A DNA stretch of 33,725 nucleotides from a virus. Numbering within the stretch: position 1 is the stretch's first letter; the number at the start of each line of letters is the position of its first letter. Where the stretch lies: positions 1-33,725 of the IMG/VR virus record IMGVR_UViG_3300028392_000188. The stretch is one strand, 5' to 3'. Below the pieces are notes generated by a model. That model saw only the letters and a program-made list of their open reading frames with translations. It was not told where the DNA came from and ran no database searches. Position numbers and translations under genes: made by a program. Positions 1 to 33,725 of this stretch are shown here, in pieces.

Positions 1-1264
1 CGCAGCCGAAGCACGTCAGGCAGAGATCACAGATCTTGACGCCAAAATCACAAGTGCAGAAGCACTTGAAGCCCGCACCGCAGTAATCAAGGAAGCCCGC
101 GCCGATTCAGGTGTTAAGACTTTCGGTTCTGCTGTAATCGGTAAAGAAGAAATGACCTATGATGTCCGTGGCGAACACTCGTTCGTTCGTGACATGATCG
201 CTGCACAACTGCGCAACGATTCTTCTTCATGGGAACGTCTTGCACGTCACCAGCAAGAAGTTGCTGTCGAGCTTCGCGATGTTTCGCGCACCGACGGTTC
301 AGGTGGAGATTTCGTTCCGCCAATTTACCTGATCAACGAATATGCGGAATTCGCGAGAGCTGCACGAGTAACTGCTAACCTCACAACGAACATGGCCCTG
401 CCCCAGGGGACAGATTCCGTGAATATCCCGGCTATTACAACCGGTAGTCGCACAGGCTTCCAGGCGGCCGACAACTCTTCGACATACGCACCAGTAAGTC
501 CGCGTGACCTTGTCACAGCAACTCGCACCGGTCGCGTTGAGACTATCTCGGGCTTCGAGAACGTTTCAATTCAGCTTGTAGAGCAGTCACCAATTGCAAG
601 CGGCCTAGACCGTTTGATCTTTGGTGATTTGATGGCAGATTATGCGTTGCAACTAAACACCGCTGTTGTTGGAACAGGCGACGGTTCCGCAGGATCACTT
701 AAGGGTTTCGTTACCCTTGGTACGGATACCACTAACGGAATCCCTACAACCTGGACAGAGGCGAGCCCGTCGGCTGTTGGCGCATACGCCGCAATCAACA
801 AGGCAATCTCACAGGTTGTTAACAACCGTTACCGCGATGTAGAAGCAATCGTCATGAGTGCTTCGACATGGTACTGGTTGGCTTCATTGGCTGACTCAAG
901 CAACCGTCCGCTTATCGTTCCGACGAATGGTGCAAACCAGGCGTTCAACGCTAACGGCACGATTGACAAGGCAGGCGCAGCAGCAGGATTGGTTGGTCTG
1001 ATTTCAGGCGTTCCAGTTTATGTTGATGCAACAATGACGAAGGCCTATGGCGCAGGAACAAACCAGTCACCAATCTTGGTTGGTAAGTTCTCTGACTCAT
1101 ACCTGTTCGAAAGTGGCGTGAAGACTCGCGTTCTTCCAGACGTACTGTCAGCAAACCTCACCGTTCGCTTCCAGGTCTACGGATACGCAGCACTCATCCA
1201 CCGCTTCAACAAGTCGGTTTCGACTATCAGCGGTACCGGTGCAATCGCGCCATCAGGTTACTAA
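1..1264 (+). CDS. Major capsid protein, HK97 fold, intron-less allele (5'-truncated by window edge)
   Basis: Forms the icosahedral shell. The reading frame is open from base 2, so the gene began upstream of the window. What is visible corresponds to residues 33-452 of the complete copy at 31286-32923. An Ala/Glu-rich helical stretch (the delta or scaffold-like region) precedes the GGDFVPP motif at about nucleotides 301-322, which is typical of HK97-type capsid proteins. The rest is the capsid body, ending in SGTGAIAPSGY. This copy is uninterrupted: V and P of GGDFVPP are adjacent at 316/317. In the other copy a 279-nt intron sits at that phosphodiester bond. The ATG at 152 is internal, not the start. 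The assignment is secure from context (protease and portal upstream, connector downstream) and motif. Confidence 0.93.
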   Translation, partial: AAEARQAEITDLDAKITSAEALEARTAVIKEARADSGVKTFGSAVIGKEEMTYDVRGEHSFVRDMIAAQLRNDSSSWERLARHQQEVAVELRDVSRTDGSGGDFVPPIYLINEYAEFARAARVTANLTTNMALPQGTDSVNIPAITTGSRTGFQAADNSSTYAPVSPRDLVTATRTGRVETISGFENVSIQLVEQSPIASGLDRLIFGDLMADYALQLNTAVVGTGDGSAGSLKGFVTLGTDTTNGIPTTWTEASPSAVGAYAAINKAISQVVNNRYRDVEAIVMSASTWYWLASLADSSNRPLIVPTNGANQAFNANGTIDKAGAAAGLVGLISGVPVYVDATMTKAYGAGTNQSPILVGKFSDSYLFESGVKTRVLPDVLSANLTVRFQVYGYAALIHRFNKSVSTISGTGAIAPSGY

Positions 1265-2241: not shown

Positions 2242-3204
2242 ATGGCAACACTTCCCGGAACATATAACCAAGTCACGGTTGACAAAAACGGATTCGTTGT
2301 TGCTGGCGCCAATGTGTCAGGTAGTGGATCTAGTGCAGTCACATCGGTCAATGGTCGAACCGGTGCGGTGACAGGTTTAGCGGAATCCTCTGGCAACTTG
2401 TCACAGTTCGCCGCAACAACTTCGGCACAGCTCGCGGGTGTGTTATCTGACGAGACTGGCACTGGTTTGAATGTGTTCAACACAAACCCGACCCTTGGTT
2501 CTGCTTCGACGTCAACTCCTGCGTTGATTGTTCAGGCGGCAACGTCACAGTCGAGCGGCGACATCGTTCGTGTGACTGACTCTGCTGGAAGTATTTATTC
2601 CAATTTTTATGTTGGCGGTTTTTCTGTCAACGCTTCTGATTTTTCATCTGTCTTAATTCTTGACGGAACAGGAATGAGTCTTCAAAATAGTCTTTCGATG
2701 ACTGTTGGTAATACCGTTCTCGACGCTTTCGGTCGAGTCAACTATTCGGCAACAAGTTTGTTGAAACTTGGCGACAACATCACCGCCGGTGGTGGTGTTC
2801 AGGTTGGAACCGCTGCAAGCGCAATCAACCTTGTTGGCGTGACGGTTCATAATTCAAACGCTTATGGTTATCAGCCAACACCTGCGGCGGTCAATGCTTC
2901 TGGACTTATGACCGCGGCTAACTTGTTGACCGGTATCATCACATCAACAACGGCCGCGACAGTTTCGGCACAGTTGCCAACTGGAACAAACTTCGAAACA
3001 GGTATTGCTAACTCGTTGGGCGCACCTGCCACTAATACGTCTTGGGACTTTAGTGTGATTAACACTGGTGTCAGTAACTCTTTGACAATTACAACCAATA
3101 CAGGTTGGACATTGGTTGGCGGAATGGCTGTCACACCGAACACATCGGGTCGCTTCCGAGCTCGTAAAACAGCAACAAACACTTTCACGTTGTACCGTAT
3201 CTAG
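2242..3204 (+). CDS. Fibre-like virion protein
   Basis: 320 aa, low in Cys and Lys and rich in Ser, Thr, Gly, Ala, Val and Asn, as in beta-structured fibres. It contains VTSVNGRTGAVTG (about residues 33-45), a short motif common at the N-terminal parts of phage fibre proteins, followed by FAATTSAQLAGVLSDETGTG, also common there. The C-terminal half has beta-like Asn/Thr-rich repeats, and it ends TFTLYRI. AGGAGTAA (2232-2239) lies 2 nt before the ATG. Its place between capsid and connector, away from the tail-tip genes, suggests a head fibre or decoration protein rather than a tail fibre. That location call is inference. Confidence 0.65.
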   Translation: MATLPGTYNQVTVDKNGFVVAGANVSGSGSSAVTSVNGRTGAVTGLAESSGNLSQFAATTSAQLAGVLSDETGTGLNVFNTNPTLGSASTSTPALIVQAATSQSSGDIVRVTDSAGSIYSNFYVGGFSVNASDFSSVLILDGTGMSLQNSLSMTVGNTVLDAFGRVNYSATSLLKLGDNITAGGGVQVGTAASAINLVGVTVHNSNAYGYQPTPAAVNASGLMTAANLLTGIITSTTAATVSAQLPTGTNFETGIANSLGAPATNTSWDFSVINTGVSNSLTITTNTGWTLVGGMAVTPNTSGRFRARKTATNTFTLYRI

Positions 3205-3212
3205 GATTAGCG

Positions 3213-3326
3213 ATGTCAGAATCCAAATGCCGTTCAGGGTGCAAGACACAGGATCACAATTCTTACTGGGAATGTTTGCAAGCCGCGAACATTGCCATTG
3301 ACAAATCATCATTGAAATCGGAGTGA
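3213..3326 (+). CDS. 37-aa Cys-containing small protein
   Basis: A short frame between the fibre-like gene and the connector gene, starting at the ATG at 3213 after AGGATT. It encodes MSESKCRSGC, then KTQDHNSYWECLQAA, then a Ser/Lys tail. The pattern CxxxC, then TQDH.S...EC resembles very small proteins I associate with actinobacteriophage head modules, from memory and without a search. Three cysteines and a His could bind one metal ion. The stop (3324-3326) lies 2 nt before the next ATG, so the two genes are translationally coupled. Function unknown. Confidence 0.6.
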   Translation: MSESKCRSGCKTQDHNSYWECLQAANIAIDKSSLKSE

Positions 3327-3328
3327 GC

Positions 3329-4174
3329 ATGGCCACATGGGACTTAGGTGACGCGGTAACGCTGACCTACACTAACCGCGACGCTTCGGGCAACCCAGCG
3401 GACGCAACAACAATGGTCGCCACAGTTACGCTTCCAGACGGTACGAGCGCGACCCCTAGCGTCACGCATGGCGCGACAGGTGTCTACTCAACCATTTACA
3501 CGCCGAGCCAATATGGACGCCACCTGATTCGTTGGGTGGCCACTGGCACGAATCCCAGCGGTTTCACGGATGAATTCACTGTCCGCGACCTGACAGCTCT
3601 GCCGGTCGTTTCTTATGACTCGGTTCTGGCTCACCTCAACATTCCGACCGCTTCGGCTAATGAAGAAGAAGTTCGACGTTTCATTGACGCCGCGCAAGAC
3701 TTGGCTGAAAACTATGTCGGCGCGGTTCTTGGTCGTCGCACCTATGTCGAATACTACGACGGCAACACCGACGTTCTTCGACTTCGTAATCCTCGCGCAA
3801 TCAACGTGACGGAAGTTATTGAAGCGGGCGTGACGTTGGACTCGTCGCAGTATCAACTGGATCCAACTGGCCAGCGACTCATGCGACTAACCACGAACGC
3901 CATCAGTGGAACAACCGCAATTGCTTATGGGTATTTCGCGCCAGGTGTGAATTCTGTGAAGGTGACTTATATTGCCGGATACGCAATCACGCCACCAGCG
4001 GTTCAACAAGGGGTCTTGGAAATCGTTCGCCACTTATGGCAAACACAGCGCGGAGCTTCTGTGGTTATGAGCCGTACCGGTTCGGGCGATGACTTCTACC
4101 CAGCCAGCACCTACTCCTTGCCACGTCGAGCAATGGAATTGTTGGATCCTGCAAGTCTGCCGGGTCTGGCGTAA
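3329..4174 (+). CDS. Head-tail connector (gp6-like adaptor) with N-terminal Ig-like domain
   Basis: 281 aa from the ATG at 3329, which has GGAG 5 nt upstream; a GTG at 3323 is an alternative. Residues 1 to about 90 look like a beta-sandwich (WDLGDAVTLTYT, then VATVTLPDGT, then GVYSTIYTPSQYG), as in bacterial Ig-like adornment domains. From about residue 95 it turns into a helical adaptor: YDSVLAHLNI, then EEEVRRFIDAAQDLAENYVG, then a beta-rich core and VLEIVRHLWQTQRG. The second part matches the HK97 gp6-type connector that docks under the portal. The Ig-like part would face the virion surface. It is a two-domain fusion in the expected place in the gene order. Confidence 0.75.
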   Translation: MATWDLGDAVTLTYTNRDASGNPADATTMVATVTLPDGTSATPSVTHGATGVYSTIYTPSQYGRHLIRWVATGTNPSGFTDEFTVRDLTALPVVSYDSVLAHLNIPTASANEEEVRRFIDAAQDLAENYVGAVLGRRTYVEYYDGNTDVLRLRNPRAINVTEVIEAGVTLDSSQYQLDPTGQRLMRLTTNAISGTTAIAYGYFAPGVNSVKVTYIAGYAITPPAVQQGVLEIVRHLWQTQRGASVVMSRTGSGDDFYPASTYSLPRRAMELLDPASLPGLA

Positions 4175-25335: not shown

Positions 25336-25538
25336 GGCTCTCGGTATCCATTGGCGACGTAATCATCGACTATGAGGATGACCAAACAACGCCGTCGCTT
25401 GATGGACTTGAATCAACTTTGAATCGGATCACTGACGCAGCCATTCACACCTACACCAATACCGAAACAATGTTCGTCTCATTCACACCGGAATCGGAAG
25501 AAACCGAAGAAGAATCAGAGACCGAGGACAATGCCTAA
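25332..25538 (+). CDS. Small acidic hypothetical protein
   Basis: 68 aa, ATGA-coupled to the previous gene and overlapping the HNH gene by 8 nt. Beta-like at the start (RLSVSIGDVIIDYEDDQ), it ends in a strongly acidic tail (ESEETEEESETEDNA). Not recognised. The acidic end could mimic DNA or bind a basic partner; speculative. Confidence 0.5.
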   Translation: MRLSVSIGDVIIDYEDDQTTPSLDGLESTLNRITDAAIHTYTNTETMFVSFTPESEETEEESETEDNA

Positions 25539-25851
25539 GATTGCTTGCCTTAACTGTGGCATCCCTTCAAACGGTTATCGCTGTGAGAATTGCGCTCAAG
25601 CGTATGCGAAGAAGTACGCCTGGAAGCCATCGTCTGCCCAACGTGGCTATGACGCGCAGTGGCGCAAGGTACGCCTACAAGTCTTGGACAGAGACCACTG
25701 GACGTGTTACATATGCAATAAAAAACTTGTTGGAAATGACGCCACTGTGGATCACTTGGTTGCCCTGTCTAAAGATTACGAACAAAGACTGAACCCTGAC
25801 AACCTGCGGGCATGTTGTCGTTCGTGCAATAGTGCTAAGAAGAATAAATAA
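25531..25851 (+). CDS. Free-standing HNH endonuclease
   Basis: 106 aa. The N-terminal zinc motif is CLNCGIPSNGYRCENC. The HNH core follows: RLQVLDRDHWTCYICNKKLV, then ATVDHLVALS (the D-H pair), then NPDNLRACCRSCNSAKK (Asn and the second CxxC). It is located just before the terminase genes, as is typical for HNH proteins that assist packaging in HK97-like phages. It is also the only nuclease in the genome that could act in trans on the intron-less capsid site, so homing by this enzyme is possible, though the packaging role is the better guess. Confidence 0.85.
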   Translation: MPKIACLNCGIPSNGYRCENCAQAYAKKYAWKPSSAQRGYDAQWRKVRLQVLDRDHWTCYICNKKLVGNDATVDHLVALSKDYEQRLNPDNLRACCRSCNSAKKNK

Positions 25852-28129: not shown

Positions 28130-29355
28130 GTATTCTTCGCCGTGGTGCTGGCGATGTCGTCGGCCGTTACCCACAATTCAACAACTATGTCGCGCCACTG
28201 TCGCAACTGTACGGCCAGACACAAGTCACGTCTAGTGCTGGCGAGCGCATTGACGAATGGACAGCGTTAGGCATTTCGTCAGTGTTCTCGGCTGTGTCTA
28301 TTCTTGCCGATTCTGTGGCGTCGCTTCCGCTTCGTGCGTTCAAAATTGTTGACGGTCAGCGCGAGAATATTCCGTTGCCTTCATTGTTGGCTGAACCTGA
28401 TGTGGCTGCCGGAACAAACACTTTCGAATTCATTCACATGGTCATGGTGTCTTTGGCACTTCATGGAAACGCATACATTCACATTGACCGCGACCGAGCT
28501 GGAAACGCAATCGGTTTGGTTCCGCTTCATCCGTACCAAATGCAGGTGCTTCCAACTGGCGACCAGATTGGTCGTCGCTACCTGCACCTAGGCAATGAGA
28601 TCGACCAAGATTCAATTCTTCACTTGCGTTGGATGACTCCGCCACAATCATTGGTCGGTGTCTCGCCACTGATTCAGTCGCGCAACCTGGTTGGAATTTC
28701 GTTGGCCATGGATCGTCACCTAGCCCAGTTCTATGGCGAAGGTGGCACACCGTCGGGCGTTCTAGCAACTGATCAGAAGTTGACCATTGATCAGGCTCGC
28801 GTCATTCAGGGAACATGGGAAGCAACCCACCGACGTCATCGCCGTCCAGCGGTGTTGTCTGATGGTTTGAAGTTCACACCAATCACGACGTCGGCTGCGG
28901 ACGCTCAAATGATCCAGTCTCGCGAACAACTTATTCGCGATATTGCCCGTATCTTCCGAATCCCTGCGCACCTAATCGGCGCAACTGGCGACGGTCAGAC
29001 CTACCAGAACGTCGAGCAAGGTTCAATTAACTTCCTGACCTACACGATCACACCATGGATTCGCCGTCTTGAAATTGCGTTGTCCAAGGTTCTTGCACCT
29101 GGAACCGATGTTGTATTTGACTTCGCTTCGCTTCTTCGCACCGATTCGCTCACTCGCGCTCGCGTGAATTCCATGATGATTAACTCTGGCGCAATGTCAC
29201 CGAACGAATCACGCATGACTGTTGGCCTTGAACCTTACGAAGGTGGCGACGTATTCCACCAGTCGATGGTTGGCAATGTCACCGCTGGTGGCGAATTGCC
29301 GGCACTTGGTCTCGATGTGGATCCAAGCGCACCTGTCATGGGGGTTCTTGAATAA
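28126..29355 (+). CDS. Portal protein (HK97 family)
   Basis: 409 aa, the dodecameric DNA gateway. Family features: WTALGISSVFSAVSILADSVASLPLRAF, then FEFIHMVMVSLALHGNAYIHIDRDR, then the conserved HPYQMQVL turn. The clip/stem region has a FRIPAHLIGATGDGQTYQNVEQGSINFL stretch (both quoted in parts here), and a C-terminal portion with LLRTDSLTRARV. Complete and of normal length. It overlaps the protease fusion start by one base (TAATG). Confidence 0.9.
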   Translation: MSILRRGAGDVVGRYPQFNNYVAPLSQLYGQTQVTSSAGERIDEWTALGISSVFSAVSILADSVASLPLRAFKIVDGQRENIPLPSLLAEPDVAAGTNTFEFIHMVMVSLALHGNAYIHIDRDRAGNAIGLVPLHPYQMQVLPTGDQIGRRYLHLGNEIDQDSILHLRWMTPPQSLVGVSPLIQSRNLVGISLAMDRHLAQFYGEGGTPSGVLATDQKLTIDQARVIQGTWEATHRRHRRPAVLSDGLKFTPITTSAADAQMIQSREQLIRDIARIFRIPAHLIGATGDGQTYQNVEQGSINFLTYTITPWIRRLEIALSKVLAPGTDVVFDFASLLRTDSLTRARVNSMMINSGAMSPNESRMTVGLEPYEGGDVFHQSMVGNVTAGGELPALGLDVDPSAPVMGVLE

Positions 29356-31211
29356 TGGCTGAAACATTCCGACCACCACAGGCAGTTCAGAATAACGCTG
29401 CACGCGCTTTGAAATGGATTGCCGACGGCAAAGCCGGAAGCGGTTTCACCGATACCGGTCGCGCTCGCGCTGTTCAATTAGCCAAAGGCGACGCAGTATC
29501 CGCAGAAACAATCCTTCGGATGTATTCATTCTTTGCTCGTCACGAAGTAGACAAGCAGGGTAAGGGATTCAACAATGGCGACGATGGATTCCCTAGTGCT
29601 GGGCGCGTTGCTTGGGACGCATGGGGTGGCGATGAAGGATTCACCTGGTCGTCAAAGATTAGAGAACAACTGTCGGCGCGTGCCGCATTATTGGAAGGCG
29701 TAAGCATGAACAAGCGCGACGCAATGGAATCTGACGTTGCTGACCTGCCCGAAGAATTAGCGGAATTGTTGGGAACAACTGTTCAATTCTATTTCCGCGC
29801 ACATGGCGCACATTGGAACGTCAAGGGTGCGGACTTTAGCGAATACCACAAACTATTCCAAAAGATTTACGAAACTGCTTACGAGCTGATTGACCCCATC
29901 GCCGAGAACCTGCGCAAAATTGGTTCTGTTGCACCATTCCACCTGGCTGAATTCTCCGCGTTGGGATACTTGCCGGACGCTAATCCTGGTCAAGATCCGA
30001 TGAGCCTAGCCCGCGACTTACTGAATGCAAACGATGTGTTCTTAGATGAGCTGTCAGATTGCTTCGATTGCGCAACCCGCTACAACCAGCAGGGAATCGC
30101 AAACTTCCTGGCTGGTGCTATCGACGGTCAGCAATTCTACAAATGGCAACTAACCGCTTCGCTTGGCGAAGAAGTAACCCAGCCACAACCTGACCCAATG
30201 GACGCTCAAGGTGTCGATGAAGATGACGCCGAAGAAATGCCAATGATGGTTGACGGGATGATGGGCGCATATTCAGCCGACCCAGAAGTTGAAACCGCTG
30301 AAGTTGTTTTGGAATCCGAGGAAGTTGTTTCGGAATCTGATGAAGACCGCGCCGCCATGGCTCGAATCGGCGAAGGTTCATTCGTGTCTTGGGATTCTTC
30401 CGGCGGTCGTGCGCGTGGCAAGGTTGTCAAGGTTGTGACCAAAGGCGCGGCAAGTTCCAGCGAAGGTTACACATTAGAAGCAACCAAAGATTCGCCAGTG
30501 TTCCAGGTTCAAATCTATGCAGCCAAGGGCAACGGATACATTCCGACCGACACAACAGTTGTCCATCGTGCAGACACTTTGACAATCATCACGCCACTAC
30601 CTTCCCCACGAAGCGAGGAAACAATGTTCGAAGAACGAAAGGGTGCATTCGCGTCCGCCGAGCGTGTTACGATGGACGCAGAAGTGCGGTCATTAGATAC
30701 CGGCGACGGATCCTTGAAGATTGGTGGCTACGCCGCACAATTCAACAAGGAAGCCACTGGTCTTTCATTCCGTGAAGTTATTGCACCAGGCGCATTCTCG
30801 CGTTCGTTGCAGTCCGGCGAACCTGTTTATTTGCTAGTGAACCATGACACCAACGGAATCCCTTTGGCGTCCACAGCTTCGGGAACATTAAATCTTTCCG
30901 AAGATGAAGTTGGTTTGCGCATGGAAGCCAACTTGGATCCTGCAAATCCGAAAGCCCAAGAATTGTATTCGGCTATCAGTCGCGGCGATATTGCAAAGAT
31001 GTCGTTTGCGTTCACTGTTGCCCCCGAAGGTTCTAGCCGTTCGGAAGGTTTGCGCACGTTGACCGACCTGAATCTGTTTGAAGTTTCAGCGGTCACTTGG
31101 CCTGCATACAATGACACCGCTTTGGGTGCACGTTCCGCCGAGGACGCTCAAGCCGAAGCCCTTGAATTGCGAAAGCGACTTCTTCAACTCAAGCAGAAGT
31201 TCGCTAAGTAA
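29355..31211 (+). CDS. Prohead protease fused to Dps-like and other domains
   Basis: 618 aa with four parts. (1) Residues 1-115: a small domain with ARALKWIADGKAGSGFTDTG, common next to phage portal genes. (2) About 125-270: a Dps/ferritin-like helical domain with HWNVKG (H153), H165, and D180/E184 in IDPIAENLRK. Four of the five ferroxidase-ligand positions of Dps are kept; the fifth (Asp) is Gln169. (3) About 338-412: a beta domain resembling the hypervirulence-associated TUDOR/DUF2945 unit (SFVSWDSSGG, then GKVVKVVT). (4) About 424-618: the HK97 prohead protease with H497 (NHD) and S550 (KMSFAF), which processes the capsid. Internal ATGs with ribosome sites (29706, 30624) may give separate products. 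Confidence 0.82.
   Translation: MAETFRPPQAVQNNAARALKWIADGKAGSGFTDTGRARAVQLAKGDAVSAETILRMYSFFARHEVDKQGKGFNNGDDGFPSAGRVAWDAWGGDEGFTWSSKIREQLSARAALLEGVSMNKRDAMESDVADLPEELAELLGTTVQFYFRAHGAHWNVKGADFSEYHKLFQKIYETAYELIDPIAENLRKIGSVAPFHLAEFSALGYLPDANPGQDPMSLARDLLNANDVFLDELSDCFDCATRYNQQGIANFLAGAIDGQQFYKWQLTASLGEEVTQPQPDPMDAQGVDEDDAEEMPMMVDGMMGAYSADPEVETAEVVLESEEVVSESDEDRAAMARIGEGSFVSWDSSGGRARGKVVKVVTKGAASSSEGYTLEATKDSPVFQVQIYAAKGNGYIPTDTTVVHRADTLTIITPLPSPRSEETMFEERKGAFASAERVTMDAEVRSLDTGDGSLKIGGYAAQFNKEATGLSFREVIAPGAFSRSLQSGEPVYLLVNHDTNGIPLASTASGTLNLSEDEVGLRMEANLDPANPKAQELYSAISRGDIAKMSFAFTVAPEGSSRSEGLRTLTDLNLFEVSAVTWPAYNDTALGARSAEDAQAEALELRKRLLQLKQKFAK
30615..30626 (+). promoter_or_regulatory. Internal ribosome site and start for the protease domain
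   Basis: GAGGAA (30615-30620) lies 3 nt before an in-frame ATG (30624, residue 424) exactly at the border between the TUDOR-like and protease domains. Translation from here would give a 195-aa stand-alone protease, the normal size for HK97-type proteases. A second candidate (GGAAGG 29693-29698, ATG 29706) lies before the Dps-like domain. Confidence 0.45.
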
Positions 31212-31285: not shown

Positions 31286-32923
31286 ATGTCCATGTTGGAC
31301 AACCTACGCGAAGCCCGCGCCACCGCGCTTGCTGACGCAACGGCGTTGCTATCTGGCGAGGCAACAGTGGAAGCACTGGACGCAGCCGAAGCACGTCAGG
31401 CAGAGATCACAGATCTTGACGCCAAAATCACAAGTGCAGAAGCACTTGAAGCCCGCACCGCAGTAATCAAGGAAGCCCGCGCCGATTCAGGCGTTAAGAC
31501 TTTCGGTTCTGCTGTAATCGGTAAAGAAGAAATGACCTATGATGTCCGTGGCGAACACTCGTTCGTTCGTGACATGATTGGCGCACAACTTCGCAACGAT
31601 TCTTCTTCATGGGAACGTCTTGCACGTCACCAGCAAGAAGTCGCTGTTGAATCACGCGATGTATCACGCACCGATGGTGCTGGTGGAGATTTCGTTTATG
31701 GCGAGAGCCAGGGACGCTTCGTAGCGTAAGTTACGAATGAACATCACGCTGTATCGGTGAACCCCACCAAATTTATTTGGGGAATACCGAGGGAACCCAC
31801 GCTAGGGACTCCGTAGAGACTACACGCGAGACAACCTTGATAGGTGCAATACTGGTAGCGAAGCCAGGTTGCAACTAAGGTTGAAGATATAGTCCGAACT
31901 AACACAATGGAAAAGTGTTAGAGGTTGTCAGAAATGCGCAACCCGGCAACATAAATGTTGCTAGTAACAAATTTGCCCCCAATCTACCTCATCAATGAAT
32001 ATGCTGAATTCGCTCGTGCTGCTCGCGTAACCGCGAACCTCACAACGAACATGGCACTTCCAGCCGGTACTGACTCAATCAACATTCCTGCAATCACAAC
32101 CGGTACCCGTACCGGTTTCCAGGCTGCTGATAACTCAACAACCTACGCACCAGTAAGCCCACGCGATCTAGTAACTGCTACTCGCACCGGTCGTGTTGAA
32201 ACAATTTCTGGTTTCCAAAATGTGTCAATCCAGCTTGTTGAGCAGTCACCAATTGCTGGCGGTCTTGACCGTCTAGTATTCGGCGATCTTATGGCCGATT
32301 ACGCACTGCAACTAAACACCGCAGTTCTTGGCACTGGCGATGGCTCAGCAGGATCACTCAAGGGTTTTGTTACCCTTGGCGCTGATACTACAAACGGCAT
32401 TCCTACAACGTGGACTGAAACAACTCCGTCCGCTGTTGGCGCTTATGCTGCTATCAACAAGGCAATTTCGGGTGTTGTTAGCAACCGTTTCCGCGATGTT
32501 GAAGCAATCGTTGTTAGCCCGTCAACATGGTACTGGTTAGCCGGTCAGGTTGACTCTGCAAACCGTCCGCTTATCGTTCCAACAAATGGTGCAAACCAGG
32601 CGTTCAACGCTAACGGTGTCATCGACAAGCCAGGTGCAGCAGCAGGAATGGTCGGTCTGATTTCAGGCGTTCCAGTTTATGTTGACGCAACCATGACAAA
32701 GACATACGGCGCAGCAACAAACCAGGCACCAATCGTGCTTGGAAAGTTCAGTGATAGTTACCTGTTCGAATCGGGACAGAAAACAAGAGTTTTGCCGGAT
32801 GTTCTGTCGGCAAACCTCACTGTGCGTTTCCAGGTTTACGGTTACGCAGCACTAATCCACCGCTTCAACAAGTCGGTTTCGACTATCAGCGGCACCGGTG
32901 CAATCGCACCTTCAGGTTACTAA
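31286..32923 (+). CDS. Major capsid protein, intron-containing allele (join 31286..31696, 31976..32923)
   Basis: 452 aa after removal of the intron. AGGAGTAA (31276-31283) is 2 nt before the ATG. Exon 1 encodes the N-terminal delta/scaffold-like region (LDNLREARATALADATALLS, coiled coil) up to GGDFV (V137). Exon 2 resumes at P138 (PPIYLINEYAEF) and runs to the stop. Joined, the GGDFVPP motif is restored, with codons GTT|CCC CCA intact. Without splicing, translation runs 10 residues into the intron and stops (TAA at 31727), giving a 147-aa delta-domain peptide. An ATG at 31955 inside the intron is not a credible start. The capsid body has diverged from the copy at 1-1264, while flanks are nearly identical. 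Confidence 0.9.
31697..31975 (+). ncRNA. Group I self-splicing intron, 279 nt, in the major capsid gene
   Basis: It interrupts the capsid gene between GTT and CCC. The 5' exon ends in U and the intron ends in G, the group I rule. GGCGAG (31700-31705) can pair with the exon end TTCGTT, including a G-U at the splice site (P1). Further elements: P2 ACGCT/AGCGT (31714-31727), P4 CGGT/ACCG (31755-31789), P5 CCAAA/TTTGG (31767-31780), P7 GACTA (31818-31822) with TAGTC (31890-31894) inside the conserved AAGATATAGTCC, P8 CAACCTT/AAGGTTG (31832-31883) with a nested stem, P9 CTAACAC/GTGTTAG (31899-31921), and two more 3' hairpins. No P7.1/P7.2 insertion and no open reading frame for an endonuclease. 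The precise absence of 279 nt in the other copy confirms the boundaries. Confidence 0.93.
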
Positions 32924-32939
32924 TCTGACCTAGTTGTCG

Positions 32940-32976
32940 GCGGGAATCTGGATACCTTACGGATTCAGATTCCCGC
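32940..32976 (+). other. Stem-loop after the capsid gene, second copy
   Basis: The same 11-bp stem as at 1281-1317, with substitutions only in the loop (GGATACC instead of GGGTTCC around the turn). Conservation of the stem between strain variants supports function in RNA. Confidence 0.7.
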
Positions 32977-33011
32977 TGCAACACTCACAACAAAAGTTCA
33001 GGGGAATGGAC

Positions 33012-33152
33012 ATGGCAAGAATGAAAACGCTATTGCTGGAAGCGGCAATCGCAATCGAAAAAGTTTTAGAAGTTGGCGGCACCATTGAACAGGTGCTGGA
33101 TACTTTGGATCAGGTTCAGGACATTCCTAATTCGGGGGTTGAAACCCGATGA
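33012..33152 (+). CDS. Small conserved protein downstream of capsid, second copy
   Basis: 46 aa, the counterpart of 1353-1493 with the same AGGGGA site and the same sequence apart from a silent change (GCA to GCG, Ala). It shows that this little gene is under purifying selection while the adjacent capsid gene diverges. Confidence 0.6.
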   Translation: MARMKTLLLEAAIAIEKVLEVGGTIEQVLDTLDQVQDIPNSGVETR

Positions 33153-33725
33153 AAATGTCCGACAAGGTTTGTATTGGAATGGTCAACAATGGTTGGGTTC
33201 AGTCTCAGCTCATGGTTGATATTATCCACATCGCACTAATGAAGAAATCACATTTTGATTCTGTGGTTCAGGTGGCAAACATTGGTTTGACTACCCGTTC
33301 ACGAAATGTGGTTGTTCGTGAATTCTTAGACAATACCGAAGCCGAATGGTTGTTGTTGGTTGATTCTGACGAATCGTTGAAACCTGAAGTGTTCCAATTA
33401 TTGTGCGACACCGCGCATGACAAGGAACGTCCAATTGTTTCAGGTTTAGTGTTCGGCGCGTTCTTTGATAACGACGGTCAACTTCGACCAGTTCCCACGA
33501 TTTACAACATGGACGAAGAAGATGGTTTGCAACCGATTGACAACTTCCCAATCAACGAGCTGATTGAAGTTGACGCGGTTGGCACTGGCTGTCTGCTCAT
33601 TCATCGTTCGGTGTTGTTAAGAATGCAAGCCAACGCCACACAGAACCAAGGCCCACGCTGGGCATGGTTCGCCGAGGGTGCTATTGACGGCACATATTTT
33701 GGCGAGGATTTGTTATTCAGTAAGC
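33149..33725 (+). CDS. GT-A-fold glycosyltransferase, second copy (3'-truncated by window edge)
   Basis: The first 192 residues of the glycosyltransferase also seen at 1490-2239, cut by the end of the window within the GEDLLFSK region. Only scattered, mainly third-position differences separate it from the first copy (for example GTGTTG versus CTGCTC codons in CVLIH/CLLIH). It includes the DxD motif. It is the same gene reached after one full genome turn, not a paralogue. Confidence 0.85.
   Translation, partial: MKMSDKVCIGMVNNGWVQSQLMVDIIHIALMKKSHFDSVVQVANIGLTTRSRNVVVREFLDNTEAEWLLLVDSDESLKPEVFQLLCDTAHDKERPIVSGLVFGAFFDNDGQLRPVPTIYNMDEEDGLQPIDNFPINELIEVDAVGTGCLLIHRSVLLRMQANATQNQGPRWAWFAEGAIDGTYFGEDLLFSK

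Follow-up and report, generated by a model that had tools for sequence, protein, structure and literature searches.

A putative compact, endonuclease-free group I intron in the major capsid gene of an uncultured phage

In an uncultured phage, a compact group I ribozyme related to the LittleE and BAKA introns, all of one family, very probably interrupts the major capsid protein (MCP) gene; the ribozyme lacks an endonuclease gene and would be spliced out. This is the explanation that best fits the 33,725 bases of the IMG/VR virus record IMGVR_UViG_3300028392_000188, the whole of which was analysed (hereafter the window). MCP sequence lies at both window ends, intron-less at 2-1264 and interrupted at 31286-32923 (Table 1). 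When 31381-31696 is joined to 31976-33725, the result aligns base for base with 1-2066, leaving a surplus of exactly 279 nt. The junction cannot slide, as exon 1 ends in TTCGTT, the insertion runs from TATGGC to AAATTTG and exon 2 starts with CCCCCA. Thus, the borders proposed by an earlier, sequence-only reading from the uninterrupted copy (316/317) are exact to the base. The base preceding the insertion is a U and its final base is a G (G31975). The interrupted gene matches a PHROG major head protein, that is, a virion structural gene. The same reading had described the 279-nt element as free of any homing gene; we found no ORF of at least 60 aa inside the intron and no LAGLIDADG-like gene anywhere in the window. 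The intron therefore lacks a homing endonuclease gene of its own, such as a mobile intron would carry, whether its ORFs or the entire window are considered. An HNH gene at 25531-25851 was considered as a homing enzyme and set aside; it immediately precedes the terminase gene, and a role in packaging is more likely.

Table 1. Coordinates of the MCP copies, exons, putative intron and predicted helices in the window
Feature	Positions	Strand	Basis and remarks
Intron-less MCP copy (copy A)	2-1264	+	5' truncated by contig start; unoccupied site at 316/317
MCP exon 1	31286-31696	+	codons 1-137, ending ...GGDFV (GAT TTC GTT); base-for-base alignment with copy A (2-316) begins at 31382
Right contig end repeating left end (1-2066) minus 279 nt	31381-33725	+	wrap-around; single MCP in ten relatives
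P1	31693-31716	+	exon CGUU (31693-31696) with guide GACG (31713-31716); extended stem; fold and pairing search
Putative group I intron	31697-31975	+	279 nt, phase 0, no ORF; RF00028 (51.9 bits), model R1 (131.3 bits), covariation
Possible P10 partner GG	31711-31712	+	just 5' of guide; complementary to CC 31976-31977 of exon 2; same GG+GACG in L204 and L212
P2 hairpin (UUCGUA/UACGAA)	31718-31737	+	double changes at 6/6 pairs
P3	31744-31831	+	31744-31745 and 31747-31749 with 31826-31828 and 31830-31831; 99.1% of cells paired, double changes at 4/5 pairs
P4 and P5	31754-31790	+	P4 31754-31758/31786-31790, P5 31762-31765/31779-31782; fold, covariation
P6	31791-31812	+	covariation
P7, guanosine-binding helix	31818-31894	+	31818-31822 with 31890-31894, perfect; 100% of cells paired in 65 introns
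P8	31832-31883	+	31832-31838/31877-31883; covariation
P9	31899-31921	+	double changes at 6/7 pairs
P9.1	31923-31943	+	double changes at 6/6 pairs
P9.2 hairpin	31945-31962	+	followed by family GUAACA motif (31964-31969) and terminal G31975
MCP exon 2	31976-32923	+	PPIYLINEY... to stop; 91% aa identity to copy A

We looked for statistical support for group I membership. The search against Rfam RF00028 that the sequence-only reading had proposed gave the sole RNA family match in the window, with a score barely over the curated cut-off (51.9 against 50 bits, E 1.4e-10). The minimum free energy of the intron fold had a z-score of -3.85. Relatives were collected with exact core patterns, by scanning viral contigs twice and bacterial genomes once; blastn of the intron DNA against a phage collection gave partial matches only. 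At its gathering threshold RF00028 recovered one of 11 pattern-selected loci tested (L138). It therefore misses most of the family, and sequence patterns and our own covariance model were used instead. This model (R1), built from 32 introns with the window left out, scored the window intron at 131.3 bits (E 4.4e-25) and gave no match in 80 related capsid loci. In an alignment of 65 introns including that of the window, with the structure (P2, P3, P4, P5, P6, P7, P8, P9 and P9.1) written from the window, 96.6% of cells were paired and double changes occurred at 35 of 51 pairs. The covariation score of 0.425 compares with 0.117 after column shuffling and with no more than 0.075 after sliding of the partners. 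Covariation thus supports the P3-P8 core with its P3/P7 pseudoknot topology. The P7 helix was never broken, its last pair alternating between A-U and G-C in 20 of the 65 introns, and AAGATATAGTCC is located at 31884-31895, at P7. The predicted P1 fold, CGUU/UAUGGC-GAGA-GCCAGGGACG (the slash marks the 5' border), is closed by a GAGA tetraloop of the GNRA type (31703-31706) and contains a U31696-G31713 wobble, the mark of a 5' splice site. The group I assignment, with the hallmarks first listed for it (U before, G at the end, AAGATATAGTCC, a perfect P7, and P2, P5, P8 and P9), was therefore borne out, and P1, P3, P4, P6, P9.1 and P9.2 can be added. Positions 31697-31975 are accordingly predicted to be a complete, compact, endonuclease-free group I intron inside the MCP gene.

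Group I introns splice in two steps, the first initiated by guanosine. In the window, the phosphodiester that follows U31696, positioned by the U-G wobble of P1, would be the target of exogenous guanosine bound at P7. A second attack, by the released exon 1 behind G31975, would ligate GTT to CCC and restore ...GGDFV-PPIYL... and a normal capsid protein. If the transcript stayed unspliced, translation of exon 1 would run some 33 nt into the intron and end at the in-frame stop 31727-31729. From these features we infer that the window copy splices. If splicing had been lost, the capsid could be made in pieces, with exon 1 as an N-terminal scaffold part and exon 2 translated from the ATG at 31955 (MLLVTNLPPIYL...). 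This ATG is in frame, within P9.2, and the break would fall near the maturation cleavage point by homology with LittleE, whose mature capsid starts about 10 residues upstream of the LittleE intron (PMC3706429). However, no ribosome-binding site is evident ahead of 31955, and the window copy has kept every core helix and the core positions that are invariant in the family, which is unexpected for a dead intron; we consider a capsid in pieces highly unlikely. An assembly artefact, in which the intron of another phage was stitched into the MCP gene, appears extremely unlikely. The two contig ends demonstrably come from different strains and 66 related MCP genes carry no intron, but both ends of the insert coincide exactly with functional splice borders, its guide matches its own exon, and introns sit at the same codon boundary in independent contigs.

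The two MCP copies were then compared. They are identical at 197 of the first 198 nt, whereas identity falls to about 80% (nt) over exon 2 and recovers to about 96% downstream of it. The genes downstream of the MCP are also duplicated, and the repeats extend to both contig ends. The window is best read as a genome of about 31.4 kb assembled past one round, with ends derived from two strains, because each of ten relatives (19-34 kb) contains just a single MCP and the window copies lie at the extreme ends with the downstream genes repeated. A true duplication within one phage genome, leaving one MCP gene with and one without the intron, would also place both copies on one contig about 20% apart in exon 2, and an adjacent MCP-like pair is possible in other phages (cf. 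L142). The repetition of downstream genes up to both contig ends and the single MCP of the ten relatives argue against it, and we regard duplication as very unlikely. With wrapped ends, the copies would be MCP genes of divergent strains and not a clean plus/minus pair, given the difference of about 20% in exon 2. The earlier proposal of plus and minus alleles on one contig therefore stands in part: both MCP forms are in the same assembly and the intron is likely both present and absent within one sample, but a simple polymorphism is unsupported, and a clean single-locus polymorphism or an allele frequency would go beyond this evidence. We make no claim of exon co-conversion by homing, since near-identity over 198 nt followed by divergence fits strain mosaicism or assembly equally well. 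In L142, MCP-like genes at 209-1156 and 2268-3395 are adjacent, one interrupted by an intron and the other not. Upstream of the interrupted gene, a single window ORF (29355-31211) combines a ferritin-like (Dps-type) domain, a TUDOR-like domain and a prohead protease S78.

We looked at how the insertion site is occupied elsewhere. None of 66 distinct related MCP genes on viral contigs is interrupted, and close MCP relatives with this intron were not found, all 80 related capsid loci being without it. Exon 1 ends in CGTT, fully complementary to the window guide, in 35 of these 66 genes. In contrast, the introns of two other contigs, L204 (IMGVR_UViG_3300028792_000013) and L212 (IMGVR_UViG_3300047160_001145), interrupt a homologous MCP gene at the identical FV/PP point and carry the same GG+GACG guide, in keeping with the earlier view of GGDFV/PP as a conserved capsid site. 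The site is thus patchily occupied. The terminase large subunits of both contigs are 54-65% identical to that of the window, and their cores are not the nearest kin of the window core. While the L212 intron (308 nt) has no endonuclease gene, like the 279-nt window intron, that of L204 is 775 nt long and contains a LAGLIDADG-like gene on the sense strand, which matches Pfam LAGLIDADG_3 slightly below the curated cut-off. The stop codon of this gene (605-1129) is within the conserved GUAACA motif at the intron 3' end, therefore gene and ribozyme overlap. Four other introns (L139, L142, L184 and L213) are inserted 9 nt upstream, at GG/YFVPP or its equivalent, with the guide GCCGCC or GCCGTC. Guide and insertion site go together, because FV/PP introns carry GG+GACG and GG/Y introns GCCGCC or GCCGTC. 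The window intron may have reached its site by reverse splicing or by homing with a relative's endonuclease, the latter since lost or supplied in trans.

Introns of this kind are known. Splicing was demonstrated in vivo for two of them (Pope 2013, PMC3706429): the MCP intron of mycobacteriophage LittleE, a group I element of 819 bp with a LAGLIDADG gene, and a 265-bp endonuclease-free intron in a minor tail gene of BAKA and Optimus. LittleE (Mycobacterium phage, Omegavirus; gp13, JF937101) resembles the window in that a group I intron splits its HK97-type MCP gene, again at a GG-x-x-V-P motif. It differs in its LAGLIDADG gene, on the bottom strand, in its insertion point 9 nt upstream (GG/YAVPP) and in its guide, of the GCCACC type instead of GACG. 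The published LittleE junction (NGTGG/YAVP) is the same point as in L139, L142, L184 and L213. The BAKA/Optimus intron (JF937090) is compact and endonuclease-free with the same core, but interrupts a minor tail gene, and direct blastn similarity between the BAKA and window introns is limited to about 80 nt at 74%. Both LittleE (L221) and BAKA (L222) introns fall within the same alignment and tree as that of the window and, with other introns, went into the covariance model that gives the window its 131.3 bits. By these comparisons, the window intron is assigned to the same family as the capsid intron of LittleE and the tail intron of BAKA. A capsid gene of the lactococcal phage Tuc2009 also holds a group I intron, as cited in PMC3706429; this is a Firmicute phage, likened to the window by the cited description alone. 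The novelty implied by the sequence-only reading was thus overrated: this is not a new kind of element, as a capsid-gene intron and an endonuclease-free intron of the same family were shown to splice in 2013 (PMC3706429), and the window adds a further member, at a neighbouring site and in an uncultured phage.

What goes beyond PMC3706429 is the concentration of the intron cores in capsid genes. We collected 93 cores in 81 loci by intron sequence, not by gene, and searched their flanks up to 0.7 kb upstream and 1.8 kb downstream. MCP sequence of five PHROG families (1357, 10, 2263, 752 and 29) flanks 85 of the 93 cores, a bias measured for one group I branch only, which the exact-match patterns favour, and in counts that are not independent events, some loci being near-duplicates. 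In the 20 cases for which the frame directly after the intron was tested, the product was a major head protein in 19 and a minor tail protein in one (BAKA). Several MCP loci have two introns and one has three; loci with two or three family introns are L134, L149, L153, L155, L159, L140, L163, L195 and L176. In L134 and L149, the 3' halves of the two introns are identical and the exon between them measures only about 40 nt, which suggests conversion or recent spread.

The window core is nearest to those of L143 and L211 (78% identity, tree support 91/74). Their introns are located about 40 codons downstream of the window site, in GTDSV/NIP, and their MCPs are 50-59% identical (aa) to that of the window. 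This kinship would agree with a move from one site to another accompanied by a new guide, on a tree that is weak. A common same-site origin of the window, L204 and L212 introns lowers the log-likelihood of the core tree by 33.7 and is disfavoured, not rejected (p-AU 0.136). Since the window core has its kin at another MCP site while its guide matches other introns at the window site, these elements may possibly form a lineage of compact, mostly endonuclease-free introns specialised on actinobacteriophage-like MCP genes, moving among MCP sites and unrelated MCP families through guide change, either by reverse splicing or with LAGLIDADG enzymes acting in trans; we put this forward tentatively.

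As the MCP usually ranks with the most strongly expressed proteins of a phage, an intron in its gene must splice very efficiently, and a natural intron of 279 nt is attractive for ribozyme work. That one family is nearly confined to capsid genes, across five MCP families and often with several introns per gene, bears on why phage group I introns cluster in few genes and on how endonuclease-free introns spread. It also concerns annotation, as intron-bearing capsid genes get split and their N-terminal exon is missed.

Finally, family cores were also found in bacterial sequences. A Streptomyces diastatochromogenes contig (L220, JAPTYK010000001.1) carries the same intron at about position 1066, in an apparent prophage MCP gene of the phrog_1357 type, an indication that some of the family has actinobacterial hosts. 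The same P4-P5-P6 core was detected on contigs of candidate phyla (L218 and L219; Microgenomates, Uhrbacteria), and in L218 the core is followed by an apparent 3' end of 16S rRNA.
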